NCBI RefSeq assembly: GCF_007289895.1
Contig: NZ_CP041660.1
Coordinates: 930,001 to 994,000 of the forward strand
Source of the DNA: Catenovulum sediminis
GTDB taxonomy: Bacteria; Pseudomonadota; Gammaproteobacteria; Enterobacterales; Alteromonadaceae
Length of the DNA stretch: 64,000 nt
Direction of reading: 5' to 3'
Position 1 is the stretch's first letter, and every line of letters starts with the position of its first letter. Position numbers and translations under genes: made by a program. This document shows, one piece after another, positions 1 through 35,713 of this stretch. Under the pieces are notes generated by a model. That model worked only from the letters and a program-made list of their open reading frames with translations. It searched no databases and had not been told where the DNA came from.

Positions 1-847
1 TGCTGTAAGCTAGGTGTGGATCATTTGCCAATAAGGGTTGACCACTTTTAGTATGTTTACCCGATACCACCCAACTGTTGCTGCCAACAAATTGTTTTTG
101 CTGTGCCTGAAAGTTTTGCGCCAATGCCATCAAAGGCTCAAGATCGGCCATGTTTTGTACTGTGGCTAGTTGTGTTATCGCAGATGCATCAATATCAAGC
201 GGCATCAACGCTTGCGTTTTTTCTAGCCCGTATGCCTGAATAAGCGCGGCACGCTGGATATCAGTTAGCATACTATTTGATAACTGAAAAGACAGCAGCT
301 GCATCCAAGATAATGAATCCACCTCTGTCCATTTTTCGGGTTGATGCTGATATAACAAAAATTCGGGTGGCAGAACGTTCAGTTGAGCCATACCGGCATT
401 AACCCCTTTGACATAAGCCTTCAGCACTTTTTTGTCAGCGGCCGGTAATTGCTGCCACATTTTTTTCGCGTTTTCGTATAGCCCCAAAACACGCATCAAT
501 TTGTCTGATTCAAGTGTCGAGCGCCCTAAAATTTCGCTCAAGCGACCCGCAGCTGTGCGCCGGTTCATCTCCATTTGCCATAAGCGGTTTTGCGCATGGA
601 CAAATCCCATACCATAAAACACCGCTAAGTCTTCACTCGCGCTGATTGTGGGTATCGCGTTGTGGTCATAATCAATCGTCACCGGCGCATTCAGATCTGG
701 CACTTTAATTTGTTGATGATTTTGCGCCAGACTTAAATCTAATACATATAAGGTGGCAAAACATAACAAGACAATCGGTAACAAAACAAACAGGCAAACG
801 CGCGCCAATAAGGGGTGACGTTGAATGACAAGAGTAACAAAATGCAT
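1..847 (-). CDS. S45 Ntn-hydrolase acylase (penicillin acylase/PvdQ type), 3' part outside the window
   Basis: Read directly from the minus strand, about 282 codons are present, beginning at ATG 847-845, one base after the stop of the upstream gene. A hydrophobic segment at residues about 11-35 suggests export to the periplasm. The S45 signatures follow: FVHAQNRLWQMEMNRR in the alpha subunit, KGVNAG, and near residue 260 the motif VGSNSWVVSGKHT, in which the Ser after Gly would become the N-terminal nucleophile of the beta subunit after autoproteolysis. The reading frame is open at base 1, so most of the beta subunit lies outside. The family cleaves amide-linked acyl groups; PvdQ removes the fatty acid from the pyoverdine precursor. 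Position as last visible gene of an NRPS operon suggests the same kind of deacylation, which is inference. A quorum-signal acylase is the main alternative. Confidence 0.85.
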   Translation of the reverse strand, partial: MHFVTLVIQRHPLLARVCLFVLLPIVLLCFATLYVLDLSLAQNHQQIKVPDLNAPVTIDYDHNAIPTISASEDLAVFYGMGFVHAQNRLWQMEMNRRTAAGRLSEILGRSTLESDKLMRVLGLYENAKKMWQQLPAADKKVLKAYVKGVNAGMAQLNVLPPEFLLYQHQPEKWTEVDSLSWMQLLSFQLSNSMLTDIQRAALIQAYGLEKTQALMPLDIDASAITQLATVQNMADLEPLMALAQNFQAQQKQFVGSNSWVVSGKHTKSGQPLLANDPHLAYS

Positions 848-848
848 C

Positions 849-1613
849 TCAATAAACCTCAGCAGAGCTTTTATCCGCTATCAAAGTCGCGCTGCGTTGC
901 ATTTTCAAATATATCTCGCGCGCTTGCTGATATATTTTTTGATACTGAGGGGCTACTTGAACAACCGTATCATTTGCCTTTTCAAAGCCGCATGAAGCTT
1001 CTACATTGGCATACCAATAGGGCGCCCAAACGCCGTCACTTTGTCTTTTCCCTTTTGGCCAACAGAGCATTTTTTCTGAAAAAGGAATATGTAAATGGCT
1101 ACATAACGCACTCAGTGCTTTTTTAGGTTCAGATAAAACCCACTGACTATCCATTACGATGGGGGGCACCGTGTTATTGGCCAGACAATATTGATAAATA
1201 TGCCATTGCTGCACAAACCCCAACTCATCAATGCTAAATTGCGGCCTAATTTTGGCGTACGAGTTGATTATTTTGGCTGGCTCACGCAATAAAAATACAT
1301 TTTTAAGATGTTTGGTAAAAGCCAAATCGACTTCAGGCAAAACATGATGTGTCATATGTTTTTGATAAAAAACCGTGCAGTTTGTATCAAGCGCTCCCTG
1401 CGTTAACTGTTCGGCAACTAGCTGCCAACGAGTAGACATGCTGGCCAATATTTCTGCTCTCGCTGGGTGCTGTAAACCGGTTTGTTGTAAATAATAAGCA
1501 TATAAAGGCTCATCCACTACACAGGTATCCGCCCGGTTTTCAAATGCCCGCATCATCGCCGTTGAAATATTACGTGGCCCAGACCACATCGCAATTCGAC
1601 ATTCATTTCTCAT
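849..1613 (-). CDS. sulfotransferase-family protein in the NRPS operon
   Basis: This 254-residue protein has a P-loop-like phosphosulfate-binding start, AMWSGPRNISTAMMRAFENR, and a later segment FLLREPAKIINSYA that resembles the 3'-phosphate-binding R...S region of sulfotransferases. Such sulfotransferase-like proteins use PAPS as donor when active, but the bacterial group with this WSGPRNIST start is poorly characterised, so the acceptor is unknown. The start codon overlaps the stop of the thioesterase gene by one base (TGATG), so it is translationally coupled into the NRPS operon. It may tailor the peptide, for example by O-sulfation, but that is inference. No signal peptide is seen, so it should be cytoplasmic. 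Confidence 0.7.
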   Translation of the reverse strand: MRNECRIAMWSGPRNISTAMMRAFENRADTCVVDEPLYAYYLQQTGLQHPARAEILASMSTRWQLVAEQLTQGALDTNCTVFYQKHMTHHVLPEVDLAFTKHLKNVFLLREPAKIINSYAKIRPQFSIDELGFVQQWHIYQYCLANNTVPPIVMDSQWVLSEPKKALSALCSHLHIPFSEKMLCWPKGKRQSDGVWAPYWYANVEASCGFEKANDTVVQVAPQYQKIYQQAREIYLKMQRSATLIADKSSAEVY

Positions 1614-2371
1614 CAGGCAGATACCTTTTCAAGCTGCGCTTGCAGCTCTGTATTGATTACACGCAATAATGCCTCTGTTGCAGTTTCTAAAAACAAATGT
1701 CCGCCTGGTATCTCACTAAACTGGCAATTTGCCGCAATCACTTCAGACCATTTAGACAACATCTTTTTCGGCACCCGTGTATCTTGCGTGCCGCACAAAA
1801 CATGGGTCGGACAATGGATTTTTGTCGGGTTTGGCTGATAAAAGTTTTCTGCTAGTTCAAAGTCAGCTTTTAACATAGGTAACAACAAAGCCATGAGCTC
1901 CTTGTTTTGCAAAATCTCGTCGGGCGTGCCATTTAGCGTTTTCAGTTTTTCAACAAATTCAGCTTGTGGTAAGTGATAGGTTTTATCCTGATAAGCAACT
2001 TGCGGCGGTCGGGTTGCAGATAAAATCAACTGCTGTGGCATGGGTAAATGCGCCTGCTCAATACGTTTTACCAGCTCATACGCCAACATGCCCCCCATAC
2101 TATGACCAAAGATAAAGTAAGGTTTGCTAAAGTGCGGGCGAATAGCCGCAAATAATTGTTCTGACAATAGCTCAATATCATTAATCGCCGGCTCGGAAAA
2201 ACGTGCGCCCCGCCCCGGTAACTGTACCAATGCAAGATCAATATTATCTTTTAATAACGCCCGCCAAGGGTGAAAAATAGCCGAACTGCCACCGGCATAG
2301 GGTAAGCAAAACAAGGTTGCTTGAGCATTTGGGGTTTGGCTGGCCAGCGTTAACCACGGGTTATTCATCAC
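1613..2371 (-). CDS. type II thioesterase of the NRPS operon
   Basis: A 252-residue alpha/beta hydrolase of the GrsT/SrfAD family. Visible signatures are FCLPYAGGSSAIFHPW near the N-terminus, the nucleophile elbow FGHSMGGMLAYEL at about residues 88-100 with catalytic Ser, a DTRVP segment carrying the likely catalytic Asp, and GGHLFLE with the catalytic His near the C-terminus. The family hydrolyses misprimed or stalled acyl groups from carrier-protein phosphopantetheine arms. The ATG overlaps the upstream NRPS stop by four bases, indicating translational coupling. Because no thioesterase domain sits at the end of either NRPS, this protein might also help release the product, but editing is the standard role. 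Length is normal for the family. Confidence 0.93.
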   Translation of the reverse strand: MMNNPWLTLASQTPNAQATLFCLPYAGGSSAIFHPWRALLKDNIDLALVQLPGRGARFSEPAINDIELLSEQLFAAIRPHFSKPYFIFGHSMGGMLAYELVKRIEQAHLPMPQQLILSATRPPQVAYQDKTYHLPQAEFVEKLKTLNGTPDEILQNKELMALLLPMLKADFELAENFYQPNPTKIHCPTHVLCGTQDTRVPKKMLSKWSEVIAANCQFSEIPGGHLFLETATEALLRVINTELQAQLEKVSA

Positions 2372-5300
2372 ACACTCCTTAGTTGCATAACACTGTCGTC
2401 TTGTAAAAGCGTTTGCAGACTGACCCGCATCTGCTGTAAAACGCGTTCGACATCTGCGTTATACAAACGACATAAATCCGGATGCAGTCTGGCGATAACG
2501 CCCTGCTCACAAAGTTCAATATGGACAAAAAATGCATGGCCCCGCACCCCTGCCAAACTGCGGCTTTCTTTATCACCACCATACTCAGTCGCCCACCAAA
2601 AGGGTTGCTCCTCGGCACTTTGTGTATCCTGTGATTCGCTTCCCCAGTTAATAAACAAGTTAATGCCCAACCAAGGCAAATATTTTTGGTAATCTCTGTC
2701 TAATGATGCAGATTGCGGCTCATCACCATATATCAGACTCATCAAACTGGCTTGTCTAACGCCCTGCTGTGTACTGCGTTGCCGGTTTATTTCAATCAGT
2801 TGTTGCGCTTTCGATAATGTCGCCAAGCATGACATATCTATCATATACACATCGTTACTGGTTAAATTACCAATTAGATTTTCTGCAGGTGCATGTAGCT
2901 CAGTGCTTTTCCGGTTGTCGTTTACGGTTTCAATTAATACTTTTTGACGTGTAAGAAAAGGTTCGATGGCCTGCAACTCTGCATATAACAAAGCATCGTA
3001 TAATAGCGCTTTGCCCGCTGGTGATGACAAGCTGGCTAATTGCGCAGCTTCTTGTTTTTCCAATAACTTAAATTCCAGCTGTTCAACAGCATGGTCAACA
3101 ACCTGATACACTTGTGGCGATTTCATCGGGGTAATTTCAGATAATTCAGACCATTCAAAGTTTTGCCAGTATTGCAATTCATTAGCTGAAAATTGCTTAA
3201 AATGATGGTAATAATGATTTAACCAAGCAATATAATCAGACCCAGTTGCGGTACGTGTTTTGCCCAGCGATAAATTGCGGTATTGACTGACTAATTGCTC
3301 ACGAATCAAAGCTCTTGAGTCTCCATCGACTATCATATGGTGAAATATCAACAGCAAGCGATTACCTAATTCCTCCGGTAAGCTAAAGTTTACAAATTTA
3401 AATAATGGTGCGTTTTTGTCTAACCTAAACTGTCTTTGATAGTCATTCGCTAATAACTCTAACTGCTCAATGGCTTCCTCTGCTGCTAAATGACTGAGCT
3501 CAACCTGTTCAATTCGATACTCAATACCAGTGGGCGCGAGGTATTGCTCTACCTTATCATTTTGATAATCTAATCTGAGCCGCAAAGCTGAATTTAAATC
3601 GATAATACGGTTTAGGCTGGCTTCCAGCAGAGGTAGATTAACCGTGTTTTTATGGTAGCCATAAAAGTCATAGGCGTTAAAATGGGCTAACCATTTTTGA
3701 TTTTCAATAAGGTAGCGAACCACAGGATAAACCGCGACCGGCTGCAACTCTGGTTGTCTGAGCTGGCGTATTTCAGTGCAATGCTGAATGACCTCAAGCA
3801 AAGCATCATATACCGCTTGTTTTAGGTTTTCTGCCTGACTTTGGCTAATCACTGCCAAATCATGATCCATATTGACCGACATTTTGCCACCGTGCACCAC
3901 GGCTGTAAAACTTAACGAAAATTTTTCTTGATAATCGGCTGCAATAAAATCGCCTGTCGGCTCACTGGCAAAACCTATCTCTTGCGCGGCAGACAATGTT
4001 TGATCAAACTGCCCCAGATAATTTAATACCACATCTGGCAAACAGGATTCGATTCGCGCTTGTGTATTGGTCATCTGACTTAACAGCCCATAACCTTGCC
4101 CATTATTTGGAATTTTACGATATGCTTCTTTAATGCTTTTAATAATTTCAGCAGTGCTCGACTGGTCACTGCGAAAGGTAAAAGGATAATGTGTGGTAAA
4201 CCATCCAACCGTCTGGCTGCTATCCAGTTGAGTATAACAATCATCGCGCCCATGACTTTCAAGCGCTAATGACAAGCAACCGTCACCCGACCAGTTTTTA
4301 AAAGCAATAAACCAAGCCGCTAACAACAGCTCGTTAATCTGCGTTTGATAAGCTTGTGCGCATTGACCAATGAGCTGTTCTGTTGCCGCTTGCGGTAGTG
4401 CAAATTGCACAGTCGCCCATTTTTTATCGGCGAGTGTGGCGGCATCTTGATTAAGCCGTTTTACGGCTTGATTTTGCTCTGTCCAATAAGGCTTTTCGGC
4501 CAGCAATGCCTTACTATTACTGGCATCTAGCATAGCTTGGCTCCATTGTTGCAGTGAGCAGGTTTTGTCGCCTAGGTTAATGCGTTCGGCGCTTTGGTGC
4601 TGAGCCCAAAGCTGCGCTAAATCATCAAGCAATACGCGCCAAGAGACACCATCTACCGCAATATGATGAATAATCCATAATAAACGTTGCGCTTTACCGG
4701 CCTGAAATAAAACCAACTTCATAATAGGCCCGTGGGTAATATCTAAACTGGCTTGTGCCTGATTGGCGCGCGTTTCAATAAATTGGGTATCCGCCAGTTG
4801 TTTAACCTGAACGACTTCAATACAGGATAATAATTCATCGGCATCTAAAGGCTTAAAGTAGAGTGATTTTTGGCCATCTACACGCAGCCTTAAAGCATCA
4901 TGTTTTTGCACGATAATTTGTAGAAATTTAAATAAAAGTGCACGGTCTAACTGCGCGGGTACGGCCAACATCGCAGCCTGATTGTAATGATCTAATTTTT
5001 GTTGTTGTGACAAAAACCTGCAGTATATTGGTAATTGCACCAGTTGCCCTTTCACTTCACCCTGATCGGCACGGTTTTGTATACTGCTTGTCACTTTTCC
5101 GGCCAAAGATTCAATGGTTGGATTTTTAAATAACTCGCGAACACTAAAATGAATATCCGCTTTAGCGCCTTTAGAAACCACTTGAATAGATAAAATAGAA
5201 TCGCCGCCGAGTTCAAAAAAGTTGCTGTCGCGAGCAATTGAATGCGCCGGCATATTAAGCACTTCAGACCAAATTTGACGCAGTTTAAACTCAATTTGAT

Positions 5301-8300
5301 TAATCGGTTTTTCTGTCGTTTGTACCGGGTTTACCGGCGCTTGGGGTAATGCATTGCGATCAATTTTACCACTGGTTGTTTGCGGCCAACTGTCGATCGG
5401 TATAATCACCGCCGGACACATATAATCCGGTAACCTCTGGCGTAATTCGCTTTTTAATTCAGCGACGATATCTGAGTGTTGCCCTTTCATTTCAGCTTGG
5501 GCTTTAATATAAGCAATTAATCTGGCAGGCGCTTGACTTAAAACCACAATCGCTTCTTCTACCGATGCATGTGCGGTTAAATGCTTTTCAATTTCACCTA
5601 ATTCAATGCGATAACCTCTAAGCTTCACTTGATTATCGCGACGCCCGATAAAATCCAAGGTCCCATCTTCAAGCCAACGGACTAAATCACCCGTTTTATA
5701 AATCCGACCAGTCGCAAACGGGTTGCGCAAAAATTTGTCAGCGCTCAGTTGAGGTTGATTTAAATACCCGTCCGCCAGTCCTTCACCACCAATATAGAGT
5801 TCACCCACAACACCCGAAGGGACGGGTTGTTGATTTTTATCCAGCACATAAACCAAGGTATTACTGGTCGGTTTGCCAATCGGAATCCGTTTATCGTCCC
5901 GCATCTGTATACAGGGCCAGTGAGTTGCAGCCGGCGCTTCAGTAGGCCCATAGCGATTAACCAAAACGGTTTGTTGTCCGACAAGCTGATAAAAAGCTTC
6001 GACTAAACTTTGTGGTAAAGCTTCTCCTGCACAAAAAACATATCTTAGTGCATTGTTTTTGGGCCACGCATCGGCGCTTAACATACTTTGTAACATGGTC
6101 GGCACAAAATGAATAATGCTGACTTGATGCTCAGCGATCATGCTTTGTAAATAATGCGGATCGGCATGCCCTCCGGGCGCCGCCAAAACGAGTTTAGCGC
6201 CGCTCATCAAAGTCCATAATAACTCCCAGGCGGAAACATCAAAACTATAGGGTGTCTTTTGCAACATCACATCAGCAGCACTGAGCGCATACGTTTTCTG
6301 CATCCAAAAAATCCGGCTGGCGATCGCGCGGTGAGAACAAATAACACCTTTAGGCTGACCGGTTGAACCAGATGTATAAATCACGTAGGCCTTTGATTCT
6401 GGCGCAGGACAAATGACTTGCTCTGTTAAATTGTCAGTCGGATATTGGATAAATTGCGGGTCTTCATCCAGCAAAACAGTTTTTCCTGTAAGCTGCGAAA
6501 AATCAGCCAAAGCCTGACAAATCGCTGATTGAGTGAGGACCAGTTTAGGTTTGGCATCTGCCAGAATGTACTTTAAGCGCGCTGGCGGATAAGTCGGATC
6601 TAAGGGTACATACGCTGCGCCCGCTTTTAATATTGCATATAAAGCGATAATTAAATCGCTGCCGCGCTCTGCATGCAATCCAATTAAATCGCCATATTCA
6701 ACGCCTTGTTCACGTAAATACCAAGCAAGCTGATTGGCTTTTTGATTCAATTGTAAATAACTGTACTGCATATTGTCGTCAAGCAATGCAATGTTATGTG
6801 CGTGCTTGTTAACTTGCGCTTCAAATACCTGATGCAAACATAAAGTGTCAGGCCACGACACTTGAGTATGGTTGTATTGACGCAGTATTTTTTCACTTTC
6901 AAGCGGCGTTAGGGTTTGCAACTGACTGATGGGTAAGTCAGGTTGATTCAACAACTGCCGCATTAAATGATTAAAATGGTTCGCCATTTTTTGCATGCTA
7001 TTTTCAGTAAACAAATCACTGGCGTACTTCCAACATAATTGATAGCCGGCCTGCCCGTTAACCACCTCCAAGACTAAATCAAACTTAGCGTTTGTATGCG
7101 CTATGCTATCAGCTTGTGCATTGAGTACCGTTTGGTCAAATTCACTTTGTTCTGAATTTTGCATCACCAGCATAATCTGGAATAAAACCGAATGACTTAA
7201 ATTGCGCTCTGGTTTTAACGCTTCGACAAGCTTGTCAAATGGCATCATTTGGTTGTCATAAGCGGCAAGTAAATACGCTTTATTGCTGACTAAGAGTTCG
7301 TTAAAACTTGGATCCGATGACAAATCTGAGCGCAATACTAGGGTATTGGCAAAATAGCCAACAACATTTGATAAAGCCGGATCACGCCGGTTAGCAATCG
7401 GCGCACCGATCACAATATCATCTGCCGCCGAATATTTGTGCAATAGACAGGCAAATACAGTATGAAAAATCATAAAAGCCGACACATTGTGCAGCTGTGC
7501 ATACTGGGTTAACTGCTTTGATAAAATGGCGTCAACGGTACTGGTTATACTCGCCCCTTTAAAACTTTGCGTTGCCGGTCGATTAAAATCTAAGGGTAAA
7601 CTATGCACTGTCGGCAAATTCTGTAATTTGTTTTTCCAAAACGTTAGTTGAGGCGTTAAATGCTGTCCGTCAAATAAGGCTTTTTCCCACGCTGCATAAT
7701 CAGAGTATTGCAGTGCTGTAGCGTCATTTACCGCACTTTCGTCTGCCTGTAACTCAGGCTGTGCGTATAACTGCATAAACTCATTAATTAAAATATTGAT
7801 CGACCAAGCATCACCGGCAATATGGTGCAAACACATCAGTAAAACATATTCATTTTCACTGCATTTAACTAACCGGACCTGCAGCATATAATCCGTTGCC
7901 AGCGCAAATTTATAGTTGACCAGTTGCTGCACAGACTGCTCAACCTGCTCTGCTTGTTTGTCACCCGCATTTGATAAATCAAGGCATTCAATTTGAAAAT
8001 CATCAACTTCTTTTACAACTGCCACCGGCTCATCATTTTCGACTTGATAACAGGTTCGAAGCACGGTGTGCCTGTGTAATAACCTTTTAAATACCCAATT
8101 CAATTTATCGATATCAATTGCTTGCTTGATGCGCATCACAAATGGAATGTTATAAGCCGATGCATGGGATTCTAACTGTTCGATAAACCAAAGCCGCCTT
8201 TGATTAAAAGACAGTACAATTTTATCGTTATGCGCTGTCCCCGATTTATTTTGTTTTTTTAATTCGGGTATCGCGGGCTGCGTTTGCCGGGCTTGATTGT

Positions 8301-11400: not shown

Positions 11401-14400
11401 CGCGCGCCGGCGTGGTCGGTCATCACCCCTTTAGGCATCCCGGTTGAACCTGAGGTAAAAATCACATACGCCAGATCACTGGCTTGATTGTGATAATCGT
11501 CAAACTTAATCACCCTATCTGTACCTGTGTGTGTATCGGCTGCCGGTATTTCATCTGCCAATACCTGTATGATGAGCTGTTCGGGTATTTGATTTGTATG
11601 TTCGCGGGTTGTCACCACTTGCTGAACTTCGCCCGATTTGAGTAACAAGGCGATCCGGGATGCTGGCAAGTTAGCATCAATAGGCAAGTACGCAGCCCCC
11701 GAGCGCAATATAGCCAGCACAGCGACAATTTGCTGCCAGCCTTTGTCCATTACAACCGCGATAAGTGTATTGGCACAGGCACCTTGCTGCCTAAGTTGCT
11801 GCGCTAACTTTGCACTTTCCTGTTCTAATTGCGCATACGTTAAACAGCCTTGTTGACAGCGAATTGCGGTTTTATTCGCAAACTTTTTCGCCGCGTTTAA
11901 GAACGGCTGATGTAACAAACCCTGTGGCAGATCACTGTCTGTCTGATTTACTGTCCGGACTAGATTTTGTTGCCACTGCGGCAAATCCAGATGGCTCGCT
12001 TGCAGACCTTGCTTGCTCATTGTTTGCAGTGTCGAGGTGAAGGCGGCAAACATATCATCCAACATGCCATGCGGAAATAAATCTACGACGCTATCCCAAA
12101 CCAGCTGTAATTCACCTTGTTCTTCACTGATCTGACAATCCAGCCAAACCTGTGAGGTTTGTGAGATGCTGTAAGTTGTCTCTCCCATTAAATGTTGTTG
12201 CGATGGCGTAAATCGCTGAATATCGTCGCTACTTTGTAAACCCAAAGTGCTGGTAAATACAATCGGATAACTGATCACACCTGAATGATGTCGCATCAGT
12301 TCAGTTAACAGCTGAGTACCATCAAATAAACTATGCTCTAGATCACGCCACAACTGTTGTTGCGTGTTTTTCAGATAATGCACAAAATCAAAGTTGCCTT
12401 GCTGCGAATTAAATTCCAGTAAGGTTAAAGTGGTAAAATCACCAACAATTTTTTCCACTTGCGGATGCACCGGAAGTCGGTTGAATAGGGTTAAATTCAA
12501 AGCAAAGTGTTTATTATCACTCCAACTTTCTATGACCTTGGCAAACACGCCCAACACCAAAGCGGTCGCTGTAATCTGATACTGCTTGGCTTGATGTTGC
12601 AAAGCCTGCCATTGTGTTTTAGGTAAAACAAAATCTCGGCGCTCAAATTCAGGTACCTTAATTTGTGAAGGATCTTGCGCCAGTGGCAATGTGGGTGCAA
12701 ACGGAAAGTCTGCCACACGCTGACACCAATAAGCTTTGGCAGCGAGATAAACATCTTGCGATTCAAGTGCTTTTAACGCATGTACATAATCACTAAAGGT
12801 TAAGCTTAAATCAGGTAAGTGGGTATCCGGTTGGTGATATAAGGTATAAAACTCCTGTTCAATGATCATGGTACTGGATGCATCCATTGCCAATGCATCT
12901 GTGCCTATATGCAAAATAAAATCATTATCTGCCAAACGGCTGACCTTTAAATCAAATAAAGGCCATTGCATACCCGAGAAAACCTGATGCGACATTTTTT
13001 CACGCAGCGCTAACACACGCTGTTTTTTAACAGTGTCTGGTAACGCTGACAAATCAAAATACGCTACTTGATATTCGGGCACCTCTGGTAAAATAACTTG
13101 TTCGCCATTTTCATCGACCACCATACGCAACATATCGTGCCGTTCGACTAAACGATTCCATGCCTGCTGCACGCGTTCTACATCCAGTTGCTGCGCGGTA
13201 ATCTCTGAATAGCCATACGCACCGACATTACCCAAAGCGAAATCATCTTTTCGTCCGATAAAATAGGATTGCTGAATACCCGTTAAAGGAAATGGCTGAT
13301 AACGTCCCTGCGCATTATGTGTAATAACAGGTAAACTTGCCTGTGCCGCGTCACTTTTTTCTATCAGTGCAGCGATATCTTGTACTTTCGGGTAATCCAA
13401 TAAGGCTTTTAGCGATATTTGTTTACCCAATGATTGTTTAATTTGGTTTACCAAACGCACGGCTAAAATTGAATGGCCACCTAAATCAAAGAAGCTGTCA
13501 TTGACACCGACTTTTTCAACTTGTAACAGGTTTTCAAATAACCGAACCAGCGTTTTTTCGGTTTCGCTTGTCGCCGCTTGATAAGCTTGATTAAACGAAA
13601 TGCTAGCGCGTGCATCCAGATGTTTTGTATCTAATTTTCCACCCAGTGTCATCGGCCATTCATCAACCAAGCAATAGGCATTGGGTAACATGTAATTAGG
13701 TAAAGCCGATTTCAGTTGTTGCCGAATATCTTTAAAGACAGCTTCAGCTTGTTCCTCATCACTTGGTGCGGTCAGTTTGACAAACGCTTTTAATTGTCCT
13801 TTTTGCGTTTCACTGACAATCACTTTTGTGTCGCTCACCTGCGCAAGGCGGCTAATTTGTTGTTCTATTTCCGCCAACTCCACTCTAAAGCCACGAATCT
13901 TAACCTGCTCGTCAATACGTCCGTCAAAAACGTACTGTGCATTGTTAAGGCGGCGCACTTTATCGCCGGTTTTATATATCCGCACGCCCAATCTAGGGTG
14001 TTCAAAGAAAACCTGTGCACTTTGCTGTGGATTATTCAGATAACCACGTGCCAGACGAGGCCCCGCCAAATAAAGCTCGCCCATTGCACCATCCGGTAAT
14101 GGGTTATTATCCGCATCCAGTACACCGGCTAAACTGTCATCAAACGTTTGTCCAATTGGCATGCTTGTTATCTGACTAAATTCAGCACGCGCTATTTTGT
14201 ATCTAAGCGCGGTAATACAGGTTTCAGTTGGTCCATACGCATTAATAATTTGCTCTAGTGCGGGAAATTTATCCTCTATTTGCAGCAATGAGTGGGTTGG
14301 AAAACGCTCACCGCCCAATATTAAGGTGTGCAAAAGGCAATCGGCAGTATCCGCGGCATCAACCGTTTGAATAAATTCAGACCAATAAGCTGGCGGGATA

Positions 14401-17400
14401 TCCAACACAGTTATTTTTAACGACTGGATAATGGATAATAAAACATCTGGTGTTTGTTGGTTATCTGCCAACAAATAACAGCTGGCCCCCAGAGTAAAAG
14501 GGGTAAACAACTGTTCAATAGATGCATCAAAGCTCAGTGACGAAAATAATACAAACCGATCTGCAGATGTAATGGCTAAATCTTGTGACCAGTTTATCAA
14601 GTGCTGATGAATGCTTGCATGCTCAACCATCACGCCTTTAGGTGTGCCACTTGAGCCTGAGGTATATATGATGTACGCAAGATCCTCTGCACTTATTCGT
14701 ACTTCATCCGGAGTCAGATTCTGGCTGTTAAAATGTTTGTATTGATTCAGCTGAGTTACATCAATACAAGACACATGGTTACTTTGAGTGCTATTTTCTG
14801 AGCTTTCCTGAGAGCCAAGAATGATAGTGACAGCTGCGTCCTGTACGATATTATTGATCCGCTCTACTGGCGTATTCGCATCCAGTGGAATATAGGCCGC
14901 GCCTGCTTTTAAAACGGCTAATATACTGACAACCGTTGTGTAATTGCGCTGGCAAATAATCGCTATGCTCGGCGTTTCACGGTTTGTATGATTCGACTGC
15001 GGTTTAGCCAACAGCTGTAATAAAAATCGTGCGAGTTGGTTAGCTTGCTGGTTTAATTGCTGGTAACTATAAATTTGAGGGGCTTGAGCCGTGCCGCTTA
15101 CTATCGCAGTTGCATTCGGCGTTCGTTTTACTTGCGCTTCAAATGCGCTGTGCATTAATTGGGTATTCACAAAATCGGTATGCTGCTTATCTGTGTTACC
15201 TTGGTTTAGTACTGAGCTCTTTATTGATCGTGCGGCAAGGTGTGCTTGCTGCAGGTGCGCAAATTCAGACGCAGTTAACAAGCCTATGTCAGCTAAGCAG
15301 CGCTTTGCATCCAGCATTTTTTCCAGCAAATTAACATAATGTTCAGCCATTTGCGCAATGCTGCGTGGCGCAAATAAATTACAATCGTACAACCATTGTA
15401 ATTGGGTTTGTTCGTTTGTTTCGTCCACCTCTATCTCTAAATCAAATTTACTCGCCTGGCCGGTGCTAATTTGCGTTGTAAACTTAACATCATCCAATGT
15501 GAGATCGACCGTCTCATTATTGTTCATCGATAACAGAATTTGACACAAAGGGGTATGTTGAGTGCTGCGTGCTATATTGAGATGCTCGATCAACTGTTCA
15601 AATGGAATATCCTGATGTTCCTGCGCCTGCAAATTTGTTTCTTTGATGGCAGCAAAATAACGACCAACACTCTGTTTGCTATCAATATCCGTGCGTAAAA
15701 CTAAGGTATTAATAAAAAAGCCAATTAAAGACTCTAACTCTGCTTGTCGTCTGTTGGCCACCACAGTGCCAATAATCACTTGTTTTTGATAGCTGTAACG
15801 CGCGATAAAAAAGCTTAATACGCCGTGGTAAAACATAAAAGGCGTCAAACCTTGCAGCCGACAAAAATCAGCAATACGATCCGCTAAACCCGCTGGCAGT
15901 GTACATTTGTGCATCTGTGCTGTGCCGCTTTGTTCAAGCGGTCTGGGGAAATCAAGAGGCAAACTATGGACAGTCGGGACATCTGACAATTGCTTTTGCC
16001 AGTAGCTCAATTGAGCATCAAAAGCCGCTCCGGTTAAGTGATTTTTTTGCCACACCGCATAGTCGATATATTGAATTGGCAAGCGGGTTAAACCGTGCGC
16101 CTCGCCCGACTTTAATGCTTGATAAATACACACAAACTCTCGCGCAAATATTGCGATAGACCAGCCATCACTGGCTATATGGTGCATATTAAATAACAAT
16201 ACCCCAGCCTGTTTAGCGCATTGAATATAACTGGCACGCAGCATAATATCTTGCGACAAATCAAATGGTTTTTCGGCATCCATTTGCGTCAGCTCAGCAA
16301 TTTTTTTCGCTCGTTCTGTTTTTTCTAACGCAGAAAAATCTATTCGTCGAATCTGCACATCAACATCTTTTAATACCTGTTGTAGCGGGCCATTTTCACC
16401 ATCACGATAAACCGTTCTTAATACCTGATGACGCTCAACAATCTGAGCAAGCGCTTGTTGTGCAAGTGTCAGATTAAAATGCCCTTCCACCGTTATTTGT
16501 GCGGGCATATTGTAGTTGGCCGAACCGCCTTGCATGCGATCAATAAACCACAATCTTTGTTGGGCAAATGACAAAGGATAAGCATCTTGCGTGCGCTCTA
16601 GCGCAGCGATAGCCGGGTATTGTTTTTGCTCTGCATTTTGCAGAAAATTGGCGAGTGCAACAATGCTCGGGTATTGATAAATATCTTTCAGTTTAACTGC
16701 ACGATTCAATACTTTTTGGATATTCGCAACCAAACGAACCACCAGCAAAGAATGGCCACCCAACTCAAAAAAGTTGTCTAACGTGCTGATTTTATCACTT
16801 GGCATCGCGAGCAATTTAGCCCAGATATTAATAAGCTCGGCTTCAATTTCATTTTTAGCGGGCAGATATTCATTTTGGCTGGTGATTGTCTCTATCTTGG
16901 GCAGCGCTCGACGATCAACTTTACCATTCGCCGTCAGTGGCCATTTATCCAATATTTGGATGGCAGATGGCAACATATAATCCGGCAAGTTATTTTGTAG
17001 TTGTGATTTTATCTGCGCAGCCCACTTGTCTTTACTCGCTTTGTCGGCTGTCATAGTGGTTGGTGAGGAGAGCGGTGTGGAGGTGGGTTTAGTGGGCGAG
17101 AACCTTAAAACCTGAGCAGCTTCCAATACCACATACGCCACTAATTGATTTAAACCTAAACTGTCTTTTTGTGGCAGGACCAGAGCAGAGGCAACCGAGG
17201 GCAATTGATCTAACTGATATTCAACTTCAGCCAGCTCTACACGATAACCCCTTACTTTAACTTGCTCATCGGCTCGTCCTAAAAACATTAAATTACCGTC
17301 GTCTAAACGACTCACAAGATCGCCGGTTCGGTAGAGCCGAAGCCTATTCTCGCCGTCAAAACTATGCTCAATAAATTTTTCAGCGCTTTGTTCTGGGTTG

Positions 17401-19904
17401 TTTAAATAACCGGATGCTAAACACGCCCCTGATACATACAGCTCCCCCTGCACACCGTCGGGTAATAAATTTCTATTTTGATCCAAGACCCAGCATTGAC
17501 AATTGGCCAGTGGTTTACCGATTGGCGGATGAAACGGCCAGTTTGAGGGGGTTTCATCAAGACGATAGGCCGTCACCACATGCGTTTCGGTCGGCCCGTA
17601 ATGATTGTCGAGTACAGCATGCGGCATCTGTTTTAGCCAACCACATAACTCATCTGTCATTTGTAACTGTTCACCGGCAGTGACAATGAGTTTGATTGGC
17701 CAGTTTAAATAACCAGCTTGTAATGCACTGACGGACAACACCTTAAGTGCGGCAAAAGGCATAAATAAACGCTCAATCTTTTGCTGCTGGATAAACTCGG
17801 GCAATTGATGAATATCTTTACGCGCTTGCTCTGAGATTAAACATAAAGTGCCGCCCCAGATTAAGGTAGAGATCATTTCGTGAAATGATGCATCAAAACC
17901 GATTGAAGCAAACTGCAATGTACGCATTCTTTCGCGCAACAACGGATTATGCTCGGTTTGCGCAAACAACAAATTACTCATTGCCTGATGCGACATCAGC
18001 ACACCTTTCGGTTTTCCGGTTGTGCCTGAGGTATATAAACAAAACACCGGATCACTTGCTTGCGCATCTCTAACATCTGCAGCCATTTGGCCAACCGGTT
18101 GACTTAAAATAGCGTTTTGACAGTTTTCTTCATCAATCAATAGGCTGTGGGTCGCGGCTGGGCAAATATTTGCAAACTGCTGTTGAGTGATAATCAACTG
18201 GGGATTTGCATCTTTGATAATGGTTTGCATGCGGCCCGGCGGAAAGCTGGTGTCTAGCGGCAGATAAGCCGCACCGGCTTTTAATATCGCAAGCACCGCG
18301 ATAAATTGCTCAAATGAACGTTGGATACATAAACAAACAATATCTCCCGCGCCAATCCCCTGTTGACGAATCAAGTGTGCAAGCTGGTTGGCCTTTTCGT
18401 TAAAGGTTTGATAGCTCAGCTGCTTCCCTTCAAAAGTCAGAGCGGTATCACTTGCGTACTGCTGCGCGGCATTTTCAATGAGCGAGTGAATCGTCTCATG
18501 GCGCAGTGGTGTGTGTGCCAGTGCATAACTATTATTGATAACGGCTTGCACCTGCTGTTTAGACATTAATGAATGTTGCAAACACCTATCATCAGGCTTT
18601 AAACACATAGACTGCAATGCATTGCGGTAGAACTCGGGTAGCTGCTGCGCAGATGATTCAGCTACCATTGCCGTATTGTATTGCAACATTACACTGAGTG
18701 AACCGGATAACCCTTGAATGAAAGTAACCGCCAGATCAGCATTCGTTTTTTCATCTATTTGCGCATCCAGTACCTGAAAGCCATCAATTCCTTGAATTAA
18801 TTCATAGACATGAAAATGAACAAAGTTGAACAATACATTGCTAATTGGGTGCCCTTGCGTTTTTACCATTTCAGCAATCGGAAAAGCGCGGTAAGGCATA
18901 TGCTGAGCTTGTTGCTGGCTTAGTTTTTCAATCAAAGCCGTCCAACTCATGTCTGCTAAATCACTGCTGGCAGGTAAAGAGTTAACAAACAAGCCCACCG
19001 CTTTATCGCCGCCTAATTGCTCTAAGCGGCTATTGCTTACCACTAAACTTGTCGCTTTTGGCTGGCCACTCACAAACGCGATGAGACGTAAATGCGCCGC
19101 TAATAATAAGGTTCGAATATCTACTTTACACTTTACGGCTAACTGTTTTAGCTGTTCAACCTGTGTTCTGTCGATATCAAATTTCAGGCAACGAACTATA
19201 TTGTTTTCATCGGCCTTGCTCTGCCCTAGTTTTAACGCATGATAATCAAGTGGTTTGAGTTGCGTCTGCCAATAATCAAGCGCTGCTTGATTGAGTAAAA
19301 TTTGACGCTCTACTTTGACAAATTCTTTAAATAAATTTTTTGTAACTGGCGGTGCAACCTGTCCGGCGGATATCAAACCAATGTTTGCGAGGTAATTTTG
19401 AAATAACTCAGTTAATACAACGGCCATACTCCAGCCGTCTAAAATCATATGATGGGCGTCTATGAGCAATTCAATACAGCCATCTACCCCTTGTAATACG
19501 GTAAATCGAATTTGACTGGGCTGAGACAGGTCAAAAGGTCTAGCTTGTAACTCGCTGATTTTGTCCGCAATACATGCTTGCAGTTGATGATCATTTTGTA
19601 TGTTAACCGCGCTATATTCGAATCGAACCACACCTTTTGCATGCACTAATTGCATAGGTTCACTAAACTTTTGAAAATCGAATGCAGTTCTGAGTATCGG
19701 GTGATGTGCAAGCACTGTCGCTATCGCGTTTTCAAACTCAGTTACATGCCATTGACATTTTAGTTTGAAGTGAAAAACATCATGATAAACCGCTGACGCT
19801 TCTGCCAGCATATAGTGAAAATACATTCCCACCTGCATATTGCTAAGTGGGTATGCGTCAACTACCTTGTTGTTTTTATTTTCTTTCTTGTTGATTCCAG
19901 TCAT
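8463..19904 (-). CDS. NRPS, C-A-T-C-A-T-Cy-A(Ox)-T, three modules with thiazole-forming third module
   Basis: 3813 residues. Order: C1 (17-440, HHMILDG 151-157), A1 (478-1000), T1 (Ser 1051 in GGHS), C2 (1107-1540, HHIASDG), A2 (1585-2095), T2 (Ser 2144), Cy (2195-2630) with DALAMDASS replacing HHxxxDG, A3 (2670 onward), an inserted McbC/SagB-type FMN oxidase (about 3155-3600) between A-domain core motifs A8 and A10, and T3 (GGNS, Ser 3702). Pocket codes read against GrsA: A1 D-A-H-F-V-A-H-V-V-K (proline-like), A2 D-A-E-D-I-G-A-I-T-K (acidic pocket, fits Lys or Orn), A3 D-L-Y-N-M-S-L-I-W-K (cysteine). Cy plus Ox predicts cyclisation and oxidation of Cys to a thiazole, known for EpoB and BlmIII-type modules. 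The Gln/Glu-rich C-terminus ending TTLWI may dock onto the next NRPS. First gene of the operon; an N-terminal C domain suggests an acylated start. Confidence 0.96.
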   Translation of the reverse strand: MTGINKKENKNNKVVDAYPLSNMQVGMYFHYMLAEASAVYHDVFHFKLKCQWHVTEFENAIATVLAHHPILRTAFDFQKFSEPMQLVHAKGVVRFEYSAVNIQNDHQLQACIADKISELQARPFDLSQPSQIRFTVLQGVDGCIELLIDAHHMILDGWSMAVVLTELFQNYLANIGLISAGQVAPPVTKNLFKEFVKVERQILLNQAALDYWQTQLKPLDYHALKLGQSKADENNIVRCLKFDIDRTQVEQLKQLAVKCKVDIRTLLLAAHLRLIAFVSGQPKATSLVVSNSRLEQLGGDKAVGLFVNSLPASSDLADMSWTALIEKLSQQQAQHMPYRAFPIAEMVKTQGHPISNVLFNFVHFHVYELIQGIDGFQVLDAQIDEKTNADLAVTFIQGLSGSLSVMLQYNTAMVAESSAQQLPEFYRNALQSMCLKPDDRCLQHSLMSKQQVQAVINNSYALAHTPLRHETIHSLIENAAQQYASDTALTFEGKQLSYQTFNEKANQLAHLIRQQGIGAGDIVCLCIQRSFEQFIAVLAILKAGAAYLPLDTSFPPGRMQTIIKDANPQLIITQQQFANICPAATHSLLIDEENCQNAILSQPVGQMAADVRDAQASDPVFCLYTSGTTGKPKGVLMSHQAMSNLLFAQTEHNPLLRERMRTLQFASIGFDASFHEMISTLIWGGTLCLISEQARKDIHQLPEFIQQQKIERLFMPFAALKVLSVSALQAGYLNWPIKLIVTAGEQLQMTDELCGWLKQMPHAVLDNHYGPTETHVVTAYRLDETPSNWPFHPPIGKPLANCQCWVLDQNRNLLPDGVQGELYVSGACLASGYLNNPEQSAEKFIEHSFDGENRLRLYRTGDLVSRLDDGNLMFLGRADEQVKVRGYRVELAEVEYQLDQLPSVASALVLPQKDSLGLNQLVAYVVLEAAQVLRFSPTKPTSTPLSSPTTMTADKASKDKWAAQIKSQLQNNLPDYMLPSAIQILDKWPLTANGKVDRRALPKIETITSQNEYLPAKNEIEAELINIWAKLLAMPSDKISTLDNFFELGGHSLLVVRLVANIQKVLNRAVKLKDIYQYPSIVALANFLQNAEQKQYPAIAALERTQDAYPLSFAQQRLWFIDRMQGGSANYNMPAQITVEGHFNLTLAQQALAQIVERHQVLRTVYRDGENGPLQQVLKDVDVQIRRIDFSALEKTERAKKIAELTQMDAEKPFDLSQDIMLRASYIQCAKQAGVLLFNMHHIASDGWSIAIFAREFVCIYQALKSGEAHGLTRLPIQYIDYAVWQKNHLTGAAFDAQLSYWQKQLSDVPTVHSLPLDFPRPLEQSGTAQMHKCTLPAGLADRIADFCRLQGLTPFMFYHGVLSFFIARYSYQKQVIIGTVVANRRQAELESLIGFFINTLVLRTDIDSKQSVGRYFAAIKETNLQAQEHQDIPFEQLIEHLNIARSTQHTPLCQILLSMNNNETVDLTLDDVKFTTQISTGQASKFDLEIEVDETNEQTQLQWLYDCNLFAPRSIAQMAEHYVNLLEKMLDAKRCLADIGLLTASEFAHLQQAHLAARSIKSSVLNQGNTDKQHTDFVNTQLMHSAFEAQVKRTPNATAIVSGTAQAPQIYSYQQLNQQANQLARFLLQLLAKPQSNHTNRETPSIAIICQRNYTTVVSILAVLKAGAAYIPLDANTPVERINNIVQDAAVTIILGSQESSENSTQSNHVSCIDVTQLNQYKHFNSQNLTPDEVRISAEDLAYIIYTSGSSGTPKGVMVEHASIHQHLINWSQDLAITSADRFVLFSSLSFDASIEQLFTPFTLGASCYLLADNQQTPDVLLSIIQSLKITVLDIPPAYWSEFIQTVDAADTADCLLHTLILGGERFPTHSLLQIEDKFPALEQIINAYGPTETCITALRYKIARAEFSQITSMPIGQTFDDSLAGVLDADNNPLPDGAMGELYLAGPRLARGYLNNPQQSAQVFFEHPRLGVRIYKTGDKVRRLNNAQYVFDGRIDEQVKIRGFRVELAEIEQQISRLAQVSDTKVIVSETQKGQLKAFVKLTAPSDEEQAEAVFKDIRQQLKSALPNYMLPNAYCLVDEWPMTLGGKLDTKHLDARASISFNQAYQAATSETEKTLVRLFENLLQVEKVGVNDSFFDLGGHSILAVRLVNQIKQSLGKQISLKALLDYPKVQDIAALIEKSDAAQASLPVITHNAQGRYQPFPLTGIQQSYFIGRKDDFALGNVGAYGYSEITAQQLDVERVQQAWNRLVERHDMLRMVVDENGEQVILPEVPEYQVAYFDLSALPDTVKKQRVLALREKMSHQVFSGMQWPLFDLKVSRLADNDFILHIGTDALAMDASSTMIIEQEFYTLYHQPDTHLPDLSLTFSDYVHALKALESQDVYLAAKAYWCQRVADFPFAPTLPLAQDPSQIKVPEFERRDFVLPKTQWQALQHQAKQYQITATALVLGVFAKVIESWSDNKHFALNLTLFNRLPVHPQVEKIVGDFTTLTLLEFNSQQGNFDFVHYLKNTQQQLWRDLEHSLFDGTQLLTELMRHHSGVISYPIVFTSTLGLQSSDDIQRFTPSQQHLMGETTYSISQTSQVWLDCQISEEQGELQLVWDSVVDLFPHGMLDDMFAAFTSTLQTMSKQGLQASHLDLPQWQQNLVRTVNQTDSDLPQGLLHQPFLNAAKKFANKTAIRCQQGCLTYAQLEQESAKLAQQLRQQGACANTLIAVVMDKGWQQIVAVLAILRSGAAYLPIDANLPASRIALLLKSGEVQQVVTTREHTNQIPEQLIIQVLADEIPAADTHTGTDRVIKFDDYHNQASDLAYVIFTSGSTGMPKGVMTDHAGARNTIEDINQRFEVSEKDSVFALSNLNFDLSVYDIFGVLGAGGCLVLPSSDEYRDPTAWLNYLQQQPQVTLWNTVPALMQMLVEHLESKTQDRPSLALRIVMMSGDWIPLDLPERIQKISPASQVHSLGGATEASIWSIHYPIVAPTAPTSVVTESTSQTNTSNLALSSVPYGKALANQQFYVLQQDLSLSPVWAAGDLYIAGVGLAKGYWRDEQKTAASFIDDPVRNIKLYKTGDRGRLLPDGNIEFLGREDFQVKIQGFRIELGEIETNLKRHQLLKEVFINTFETGGQKQLVAYYTQSNPSSAELETSAEIDTSSEVEQLAQLLEFKKSNRAIRDNFDMHARVIELPAVDKVVPLKTNSSLTPETFNSVASIAFSELNQILAVCRRVACETSINAKALYPSAGSTYAVQLYLYLPENAGIKDTQGQLLAGCYYYHPLKHQLIKLSQHRLPLQQVSLFLLGDEEAIVPVYGQNSELFLQVEAGYIHNLMQTCLAPELMLCGLQNVAELSSEIPQAMALSAKHQLISVLQIQSKQQAQQKAQQPINPAHHHPTECTDASSDNSNNSNNSNNSNNSNNSESCNKGQGLSDIRLLPQGCIQRGDNITHWQRKSYRQYLPQALSLAQLNNLLLSAKQAATEIDSSTELYLKVDKKITSAELTLPIGIYHYQWQTHALHLCWQTPVGNLYSGENARIANGAALNFIFVAKQNENALAAGFISQAMTLAGLAKQVGVCAMGQLNHSLLVAALPQIADKKVVHSLTVGAINAQMFNQQKPTEPAALEQQLADFLALSLPDYMVPKHFIELPALPLTANGKIDRKALPLPQTEQAQSDCLAEQQGNSKLLSDIWSQVLALETVYQQDNFFQKGGNSLLAVRLVAQIKEQMLVDLPIGKIFEAPVFADMLNTVEMAIAEAALLRQVTAAQPLAKAASDAEKNRLKQQPAGQQSEQQSEPQSEQRQAAEQTEDKTEEQEQNQGTTLWI
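9670..9723. repeat. 9-bp tandem repeat inside the NRPS oxidase domain
   Basis: Six consecutive 9-base units of the form CTGTTGTTA or CTATTGTTA on the plus strand, the last degenerate. On the coding strand they encode an Asn-Asn-Ser run at about residues 3395-3411. It sits in a low-complexity linker between the two halves of the oxidase domain. Unit length is a multiple of three, so copy-number change would alter linker length without breaking the frame. Confidence 0.9.
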
Positions 19905-32984: not shown

Positions 32985-33010
32985 AGGCGCTAACAGCGCC
33001 TTTCATTTTT
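32985..33010 (+). terminator. rho-independent terminator after the LacI gene
   Basis: Perfect seven-base-pair stem AGGCGCT/AGCGCCT with loop AAC, followed by TTCATTTTT. It lies between convergent genes. Confidence 0.85.
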
Positions 33011-35213: not shown

Positions 35214-35713
35214 TAGAATTAGCAATCCTGCTTTTGAAAAATTTAACAAACAAAAGTCAAAGCAAAAAAAGGGCCACTTAATTTTTTATTATATTTTTCA
35301 GTTACATGGAGTTACTTATTGATATCCCCGCGTTTTAATGTAAAAAAAGCTGACAGTTTTATGTGTAATGGTCAAAGAGTAATATAAAACGCTAAGCAAC
35401 TTTTCAATTCAATGTATTTTGGGTATCGATTGGTAAATAGAGGCCTAACGATATTTAAACCACTTGATGCTCTGGTTTATATGACATTGAGAAAAGAGTT
35501 TATGACTTTAAATGCTCAAATTGACTGGTGTGACGAATATTTAAACAAGCTTCAAACGAAACAGGTTCATATTATAACTTCAGCTCAATTGCTGGGGTGG
35601 CACAGGACTTAACCGTTAAATTAAGAAAAATTGATAGATTATTTTCAGTTACTAAGATTTAATCTTAGTTTCTTTAATTAGATGATTTTTATCAAAATTT
35701 TTTTGTTTGAATA
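35214..35713. other. gene-poor region upstream of the PEP-CTERM gene
   Basis: This AT-rich 500-base stretch holds the PEP-CTERM promoter region. A 66-codon open frame at 35412-35612 (plus) has an ATG but no clear ribosome binding site and no recognisable domain, so it is not called as a gene. Confidence 0.5.

Follow-up and report, generated by a model that had tools for sequence, protein, structure and literature searches.

The window analysed here is a stretch of 64,000 nucleotides of Catenovulum sediminis contig NZ_CP041660.1 (bases 930001-994000 of the larger contig; the genome consists of two contigs, 4.87 Mb). Its left end holds two nonribosomal peptide synthetase (NRPS) genes, NRPS1 and NRPS2, and the window edge splits the cluster to which they belong. 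To follow the cluster past that edge we took in an extra 25 kb to the left, where five further likely members lie up to ~20 kb leftward: an ABC exporter, a MetA-like homoserine acyltransferase (HTS), a CmlA-type hydroxylase, a third synthetase (NRPS3) and a PhyH protein. We lean, with confidence a little better than even, towards one cluster making a fatty acyl-dehydro(O-acetyl)homoserine-Pro-like-basic-thiazole-D-Ser-like peptide that would be exported and then deacylated. Thiazole formation is ordinary NRPS chemistry; the new part is the homoserine cassette.

Genes at the locus

Open reading frames (ORFs), Pfam matches and motifs bear out the architecture given by an earlier sequence-only reading of the window, that is, two NRPS genes, C-A-T-C-A-T-Cy-A(Ox)-T and docking-C-A-T-E-C, with type II thioesterase, sulfotransferase-like and acylase genes (Table 1). 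By Pfam, NRPS1 contains three C, three A and three T domains and a weak nitroreductase match, and NRPS2 a TubC_N docking domain, three C-type domains, an A and a T. NRPS1 and NRPS2 overlap by 10 nt, NRPS2 and the thioesterase by 4 nt, the thioesterase and the sulfotransferase by 1 nt, and the ABC gene and the acylase by 10 nt; the acylase starts 1 nt past the sulfotransferase. Because of these overlaps and the 1-nt gap, the six genes from NRPS1 to the ABC exporter look like one operon.

Leftward on the same strand lie the remainder of the acylase, the ABC exporter, a phytochrome-GGDEF-EAL protein and a heme oxygenase (L010:3058-6568), HTS, CmlA in two frames, NRPS3 and PhyH. A gap of only 3 nt separates HTS from the hydroxylase, and NRPS3 overlaps the second hydroxylase frame by 11 nt, so that the HTS/CmlA/NRPS3 group looks like a second operon, ~8 kb past the ABC gene. 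Between the two operons lie the phytochrome and heme oxygenase genes and, on the opposite strand, an RND efflux pair (L009:13621-17969). Beyond PhyH, on the plus strand, is a PPTase-like ORF (named by eye) with a similar ORF in genome G008 (38%). A terminator-like hairpin at 20156-20134 is consistent with a right-hand border, although such hairpins are common in shuffled sequence too (4 found vs a shuffled mean of 2.3, standard deviation 1.7).

Table 1. Genes and synthetase domains of the cluster, in window coordinates
Feature	Position	Strand	Description	Evidence
NRPS1	8463..19904	-	3813 aa; C(dehydrating type)-A-T-C-A-T-Cy-A[Ox]-T	Pfam and motif scans
NRPS1 first C	18552..19886	-	dehydrating (DHC/Cmod) clade	HHMILDG; FNFVHFH
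NRPS1 A1	16875..18503	-	Pro-like	pocket DAHFVAHVV
NRPS1 second C	15297..16613	-	LCL type	
NRPS1 A2	13635..15167	-	basic residue	pocket DAEDIGAIT
NRPS1 Cy	11991..13322	-		DALAMDASS
NRPS1 A3 core	10557..11927	-	Cys	pocket DLYNMSLIW
Ox half 1	9750..10286	-		retains YPSAG..YAVQ part
Ox half 2	9051..9599	-		retains GVCAMG part
NRPS1 third T	8700..8897	-		GGNSL
NRPS2	2368..8472	-	2034 aa; TubC_N docking-C-A-T-E-C	Pfam and motif scans
NRPS2 A	5338..6855	-	Ser lineage by tree	altered pocket DVWHFARAA
NRPS2 E	3763..5088	-	E clade 100* (tree)	HHIAVDG
NRPS2 terminal C-type domain	2371..3747	-	very divergent	HHMIVDG
Type II thioesterase (TEII)	1613..2371	-		PF00975, 160 bits
Sulfotransferase-like protein	849..1613	-	Sulfotransfer_5 family	PF19798, 174 bits; weak PDB match CurM, E 0.0015
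Penicillin-acylase-family protein	2..847	-	first 282 of 849 aa; remainder beyond left window edge	whole gene L010:8298-10847

A homoserine acyltransferase cassette

NRPS3 (1784 aa) reads FAAL-T-C-A*-T and lacks a release domain. The pocket of its adenylation domain A*, DAKNAGIDI, is identical in Pseudoalteromonas luteoviolacea, G335 and both Lysobacter genomes (L. chinensis and L. antibioticus), differs at one position in Massilia rubra and G1002, and agrees at the positions read in G1140 and G1068; six A* domains form one clade in the A-domain tree (98*). CmlA, a dehydrating-type C domain and a homoserine O-acyltransferase are present in each of the nine A* clusters examined. The acyltransferase is a MetA-like HTS in seven (the source, P. 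luteoviolacea, G335, M. rubra, G1002, G1140, G1068) and an unrelated MetX in the two Lysobacter clusters, whereas in eight CmlA clusters that lack A* (G067, G088, G230/L074, L070, L072, G047, G141, G029) the fetched parts contain neither enzyme.

These eight are the ones fetched; CmlA relatives in G132, G202 and G079, the second copies of G088, G230 and G395, and those on 12 plasmid records fall outside the count. G230 is the same contig as L074, and for L070 and L072 absence of A* means that its motifs are absent from the fetched part. G335, P. luteoviolacea (two strains counted once), M. rubra and the two Lysobacter clusters were reached via CmlA, so the presence of CmlA in them reflects how they were chosen. 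G1002, G1140 and G1068 were found via A* alone, as the next-best A* matches in 392 genomes of Massilia's family, and were set as a test: their flanks all had HTS, CmlA and FAAL, and each A* had a GGDSI carrier and then a domain best matched by the NRPS1 first C (tblastn, 31-34%), a label given by that match and outside the tree. The A* search yielded 12 loci including Massilia's own, the three best new ones of which were followed, which makes nine A* clusters a lower bound; the motif comparison covered none of L108-L110, L113 and L114, and the A* motifs of G1140 and G1068 were read from fetched flanks. A second genome scan with CmlA gave at least 11 loci, at least 8 of them CmlA relatives, and is a sample rather than a census.

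The cluster HTS is a paralog and not the housekeeping enzyme: the genome has a separate housekeeping MetA (436 bits vs 145 bits for the cluster HTS), and the cluster protein falls below the NCBIfam MetA_acetyl equivalog cut-off (121 bits vs 460.5). It retains GLCWGAM (Cys) and HPEY, matching what we take to be the Cys, His and Glu catalytic triad of MetA, and all seven cluster HTS proteins keep Cys, HPEY and RD. The residue after GAPx is Glu in the same seven vs Gly or Ala in the two housekeeping MetA proteins read; Glu here presumably signals acetyl-CoA use. Neither Lysobacter genome gave an HTS match. In L. chinensis, MetX lies beside homoserine dehydrogenase, adjoining the acylase and ABC genes; it scores 375.9 bits on NF001209 (cut-off 331) and 407 bits on the acetyl model TIGR01392, below the cut-off of 500, and higher on acetyl than on succinyl models. 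L. antibioticus has MetX and homoserine dehydrogenase copies (66% and 70% identical) beside FAAL, acylase and ABC genes, on a contig that differs from the A* contig. Because of the HTS Glu and the MetX acetyl-model scores, we regard O-acetylhomoserine as the leading candidate for the A* substrate. The available text of the laxaphycin work (PMC7524897) recognises DLKNFGSDVK as a homoserine code, to which A* is equal at D235, K239, N278, G301 and D330. Two of the differences, L236A and F299A, would make the pocket wider.

HTS might instead act once the residue is loaded, placing an acyl group on the beta-hydroxyl made by CmlA, whether as leaving group or as cap, with homoserine or another small polar residue as the A* substrate. 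This possibility, to which we give a modest chance, draws on the position of HTS, which adjoins CmlA in all seven clusters that have it; however, the Lysobacter MetX beside homoserine dehydrogenase points to free homoserine as the acceptor, and the dehydrating C domains reviewed in the available part of PMC10880069 act on free hydroxyls.

The CmlA-type protein (CmlA_N PF18456, 256 bits; Lactamase_B_3; THTHMDH) is 43-61% identical to its relatives over its second half. A search for CmlA in viral contigs returned 25 stretches, none confirmed. Literature searches found nothing on CmlA with penicillin acylase and nonribosomal peptides, and nothing joining CmlA, homoserine O-succinyltransferase and NRPS; the NRPS papers listed for acetyl- or succinylhomoserine carried no homoserine terms.

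The hydroxylated residue would be handed on to NRPS1, which lacks a FAAL or loading module of its own and opens with a C domain requiring a donor. In P. luteoviolacea MMG009 and G335, the gene right after that of a FAAL-C-A*-T protein of 1716-1724 aa encodes an NRPS that opens with a domain 39-40% identical to the NRPS1 first C. The sequence-only reading had the chain start at NRPS1, which is probably wrong, because NRPS3 precedes it and its first C is of the dehydrating type. A PDB search with this domain places McyA (228 bits) and AmbE (132 bits) on top, with surfactin synthetase next (116 bits), and the two likewise head the matches of the Massilia counterpart; for the NRPS1 second C, used as a control, teixobactin and tyrocidine synthetases come first and neither McyA nor AmbE appears at E<=1e-30. 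In a tree of 86 C domains from the source and related clusters (C fragments <380 aa excluded; AmbE, McyA and dual C/E references absent from its rows), the NRPS1 first C falls in a 10-row clade (100*) beside 12 post-E domains (97*). The clade further comprises the post-A* domain of five other A* clusters and four more members; motifs place three of these (G335_1, Plut_6, G029_8) after A domains of Thr or Ser type. Among the C domains of the source cluster, only the first of NRPS1 has the type that follows A* in relatives.

The carriers agree with this placement. Leaving aside FAAL domains and protein-terminal A domains, except for three named hand-offs, the GGDS motif stands before 13 of 13 E domains, 10 of 10 dehydrating-clade domains and two of 24 other C domains (for a further two the motif could not be read); the T upstream of the NRPS1 first C has GGDSI, the E-type motif. 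FNFxxFH, visible in McyA and AmbE, occurs in six of the 10 clade members, NRPS1 included, and in none of the 75 other domains. According to the available part of PMC10880069, the AmbE domain dehydrates a beta-hydroxylated residue; most of the dehydrating C domains characterised so far cluster among dual and post-E domains, with an E-type motif on the carrier upstream. The NRPS1 first C is thus probably a dehydrating domain acting on the NRPS3 residue. Published trees place dual C/E, post-E and dehydrating domains close together, with an E-type carrier group common to them (PMC10880069, as far as available). With no dual C/E reference in our tree either, the domain might instead be a dual epimerising C that leaves a D-beta-hydroxyhomoserine-type first residue. 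We think this unlikely in view of the McyA and AmbE matches, the FNFxxFH motif common to both and the three clade members that follow Thr or Ser.

Probable thiazole module, release and export

Pocket codes were read by motif. The Pro-like, basic and Cys pockets of the sequence-only reading agree with ours: we take the A1 code as Pro-like and the A2 code as Lys/Orn-like basic, and A3 is compared with DLYNLSLIW, presumably the Cys reference code. In the tree, A1 belongs to a five-row starred set (96*) with Plut_8, G047_1 and G141_12 nearest, the latter two having DVQ...H pockets, and A3 pairs with an A domain of G008 (99*). Thiazole formation also stands, as likely rather than certain. The Cy domain has the DxxxxDxxS motif, without HHxxxDG, the A domain has the Cys-activating pocket of thiazole-forming NRPS, and a 450-aa insert holds the embedded oxidase (Ox). 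Matches of the latter are weak (nitroreductase E 8.8e-05, just under the cut-off; BmdC E 0.005), with 43% identity over ~120 residues to G008.

In five other genomes (L079-L083), both halves of the insert align to one and the same Ox stretch inside a large ORF. The halves show little similarity to one another (21% over 71 aa, E 0.11), each retaining a different part of the conserved sequence. It is plausible, if unproven, that the tandem Ox is a fused pseudo-dimer, and for that reason thiazole over thiazoline is likely but not certain. Ox-like matches occur in eight of 369 genomes of the class, the source included, and no Ox was found in the five A*-bearing records tried. A 9-bp repeat (5.9 copies, window 9669-9721) encodes a Ser/Asn-rich, possibly length-variable linker between the halves, and a 12-bp repeat (window 8537-8576) encodes a C-terminal NRPS1 tail rich in Gln, Glu and Ser, close to the docking end.

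NRPS2 A lies in a six-row starred set (98*) in which four of the five nearest rows carry Ser-type DVWH..S..ID pockets; its substrate is uncertain because four pocket positions differ. The earlier prediction that this residue is epimerised stands. The terminal C-type domain is likely the release step. Its tree position is a long branch, which we did not use; genus, family and plasmid searches returned ordinary C-domain matches (best 32% over 176 aa), and no close match was found in 394 other genomes of the family, seven congeners included. The complete cluster hence appears rare. Of 17 candidate stretches that whole NRPS2 gave against genome contigs, none was confirmed.

The N-terminus of the acylase (849 aa; Penicil_amidase, 685 bits) is hydrophobic. 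The protein has a Gly255-Ser256 autocleavage site, where Ser256 aligns with the first residue of solved beta chains. A D-succinylase is its best PDB match, PvdQ being a distant relative; we file it in the penicillin-acylase family and suggest that it may act like PvdQ. The neighbouring ABC exporter scores 344.5 bits on TIGR01194 (cut-off 286.2; cyclic peptide export), which we take to be the family of PvdE and SyrD. Given the N-terminus, the Gly-Ser site and this exporter, with a lipid coming from FAAL, the acylase looks like a PvdQ-style deacylase and probably removes the lipid instead of adding it; the earlier proposal had suggested that, with this gene, the product could be an acylated peptide. 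It occurs in five of the nine A* clusters as fetched (source, P. luteoviolacea, M. rubra, both Lysobacter); as five CmlA clusters that lack A* (G067, G088, G230/L074, L070, L072) have it too, it is a separate theme.

The PhyH protein is nearest to ectoine hydroxylase (EctD-like; 148.6 bits, below cut-off). A siderophore was considered for the acylase/ABC pair and set aside, no siderophore enzyme being recognised among the cluster ORFs scanned, in which no search was aimed at such enzymes. A literature search on thiazole, PvdQ and NRPS gave nothing on topic by title.

Proposed pathway, rivals and relatives

From the domains, gene order, conserved cassette and clade placement observed above, every chemical step, the substrates and the order NRPS3-NRPS1-NRPS2 can be predicted as follows. 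The FAAL of NRPS3 would load a fatty acid, and A* homoserine or, more likely, O-acetylhomoserine made by the MetA-type acyltransferase of the cluster. The CmlA-type enzyme would hydroxylate the beta carbon of the carrier-bound residue, and the NRPS1 first C would remove water to give alpha,beta-dehydro(O-acetyl)homoserine, joined to a Pro-like residue. NRPS1 would then add a basic residue and a Cys, turned into thiazole by Cy and Ox; NRPS2 would add a D-configured Ser-like residue, its terminal C releasing the chain through ring closure or by transfer to an amine or water. Finally, the PvdE-type transporter would export the peptide and the periplasmic acylase remove the fatty acid.

The core proposed earlier, Xaa(Pro-like)-basic-thiazole-D-Xaa, keeps these residues but misses the preceding one and the lipid: it becomes acyl-X*-Pro-like-basic-thiazole-D-Xaa. 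As a whole, then, that interpretation retains the thiazole, the pockets, the epimerised residue and the want of a recognised product (none was found; MIBiG lay outside the comparison), and is revised in the chain start, the role of the first C and that of the acylase. So corrected, the thiazole peptide would have one more residue, a lipid put on and then taken off, and possible periplasmic activation. What this would probably add to the NRPS repertoire is a new building block in which an acyl-homoserine becomes a dehydro residue. A short pocket code together with a three-gene signature makes it recognisable in bacteria of the Pseudoalteromonas family, in Lysobacter and in Massilia relatives. 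Homoserine acyltransferases of two unrelated kinds occur in such clusters, so that the guess at the substrate can be tested directly.

More speculatively, homoserine O-acetyltransferase, CmlA, A*-T(GGDS) and dehydrating C could be a general device for 4-acetoxy-2,3-dehydro-2-aminobutyryl residues. Here the residue would be N-terminal under a removable acyl cap, and periplasmic deacylation would release the enamine, with loss of acetate and exposure of a vinyl-imine or 2-oxo-3-butenoyl electrophile; the product would be a lipid-capped prodrug with its warhead released on export. We hold this extension to be improbable.

Several findings weigh against the proposed pathway. A* matches the homoserine code at just five of nine positions. 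The Massilia and Lysobacter dehydrating-type domains lack FNFxxFH, and their A* residue is internal. The Lysobacter MetX-homoserine dehydrogenase pair could be a chance-adjacent methionine operon, since such an operon could also show MetX beside homoserine dehydrogenase, although both Lysobacter genomes hold other MetX relatives, 35-37% identical, elsewhere. In M. rubra the cluster HTS is the sole HTS match in the genome, where a housekeeping role is possible. The acylase scores 88.5 on the NCBIfam PvdQ equivalog (cut-off 950). As fetched, the clusters of G335, G1002, G1140 and G1068 show no acylase, which puts it outside the core cassette. The phytochrome, heme oxygenase and RND genes interrupt the cluster. 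Last, CmlA is split into frames of 339 and 203 aa; if the break is real, the beta-hydroxyl, and hence dehydration, would fail here.

This is the only CmlA gene found in the source genome, and its break raises the prospect of a decaying cluster with no functional product. We doubt it: the halves are 53% and 59% identical to the P. luteoviolacea protein and neither looks decayed, the other cluster genes are single open frames, and the break falls in a short single-base run, a common site of sequencing error. Most improbable of all is that NRPS1 and NRPS2 alone make Pro-like-basic-thiazole-D-Xaa and the NRPS3/HTS/CmlA group is a separate cluster, as the intervening genes and the spacing into separate transcription units would allow, given that P. 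luteoviolacea keeps acylase-ABC-HTS-CmlA-FAAL-A*-DHC contiguous (our main reason for treating the two groups as one interrupted cluster), that NRPS1 alone in the source has the C type expected after A*, and that NRPS3 has no release domain and NRPS1 no loading module.

The P. luteoviolacea cluster (MMG009 / NCIMB 1944; L067/L068/L086-L089) is like that of the source in its acylase, PvdE-type ABC exporter, HTS, CmlA, FAAL-C-A*-T protein, nine-residue A* pocket and dehydrating-type next domain; its second A domain is nearest NRPS1 A1, a PhyH (40% to the source) lies at the far cluster end and a TEII (38%) a few kb past the acylase. Unlike the source, it has a much longer NRPS chain, and one search found no Ox in the genome, so that no thiazole is expected by this route. 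Its stretch L086:13206-18396 contains, besides a PhyH 40% identical to that of the source, a second CmlA, a protein of the beta-lactamase family and a TauD dioxygenase. The G335 cluster has an Ldh_2-type dehydrogenase, an aminotransferase and a VOC protein (L051:2218-5096), the last with a 43% homolog by the M. rubra cluster (L092:11450-12010). Jagaricin, considered for the Massilia-type clusters, was not supported in the text available.

During pyoverdine maturation (PvdL/PvdE/PvdQ) the lipid is removed in the periplasm. The source cluster resembles that system, without belonging to it, in its predicted FAAL-initiated acylated peptide, cyclic-peptide exporter family and penicillin-acylase-family periplasmic deacylase, but its acylase is far below the PvdQ cut-off, the peptide residues differ, and no siderophore groups were recognised. 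The McyA dehydrating C, with AmbE the nearest solved relative of the NRPS1 first C, reportedly acts on Ser, with no homoserine; AmbE acts on a Glu-derived residue, again without homoserine (PMC10880069, available part). Pairing of CmlA with a dehydrating-type C has precedent in the cryopeptin proposal, in which the CmlA-like CrpA and a modified-AA C domain yield dehydrovaline; that cluster differs in its residue and C-starter lipid, and the text available mentions no homoserine enzyme or thiazole (PMC12181424). The laxaphycin/scytocyclamide homoserine modules share K239, N278 and D330 with A*, whereas four of nine pocket residues differ and the homoserine, in the part available, remains saturated (PMC7524897). 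We found no literature on Catenovulum nonribosomal peptides.

A second conserved cluster type, with the layout acylase-ABC-CmlA-FAAL NRPS (L054, L056, L064, L070, L072, L074), occurs in Pseudoalteromonas amylolytica, Microbulbifer, Marinibactrum and other relatives. Its first A domain was read in G067, G088 and G230 and is Gly-like in all three; the acylase-ABC pair of L054 has a class V aminotransferase and a Sulfotransfer_1 protein on its flanks. The source genome itself holds a second FAAL-type NRPS cluster (G000:C1:1091271-1117593; L103, L104) with Gly-like and Cys-type A domains, frames broken near 1096.3 kb and an adjoining exporter ORF that by eye resembles that of the first. Elsewhere in the window, a large ORF on the minus strand (33009-35249) by eye encodes repeated GTLTN/GTITN-like units and a C-terminal hydrophobic PEP-like end.

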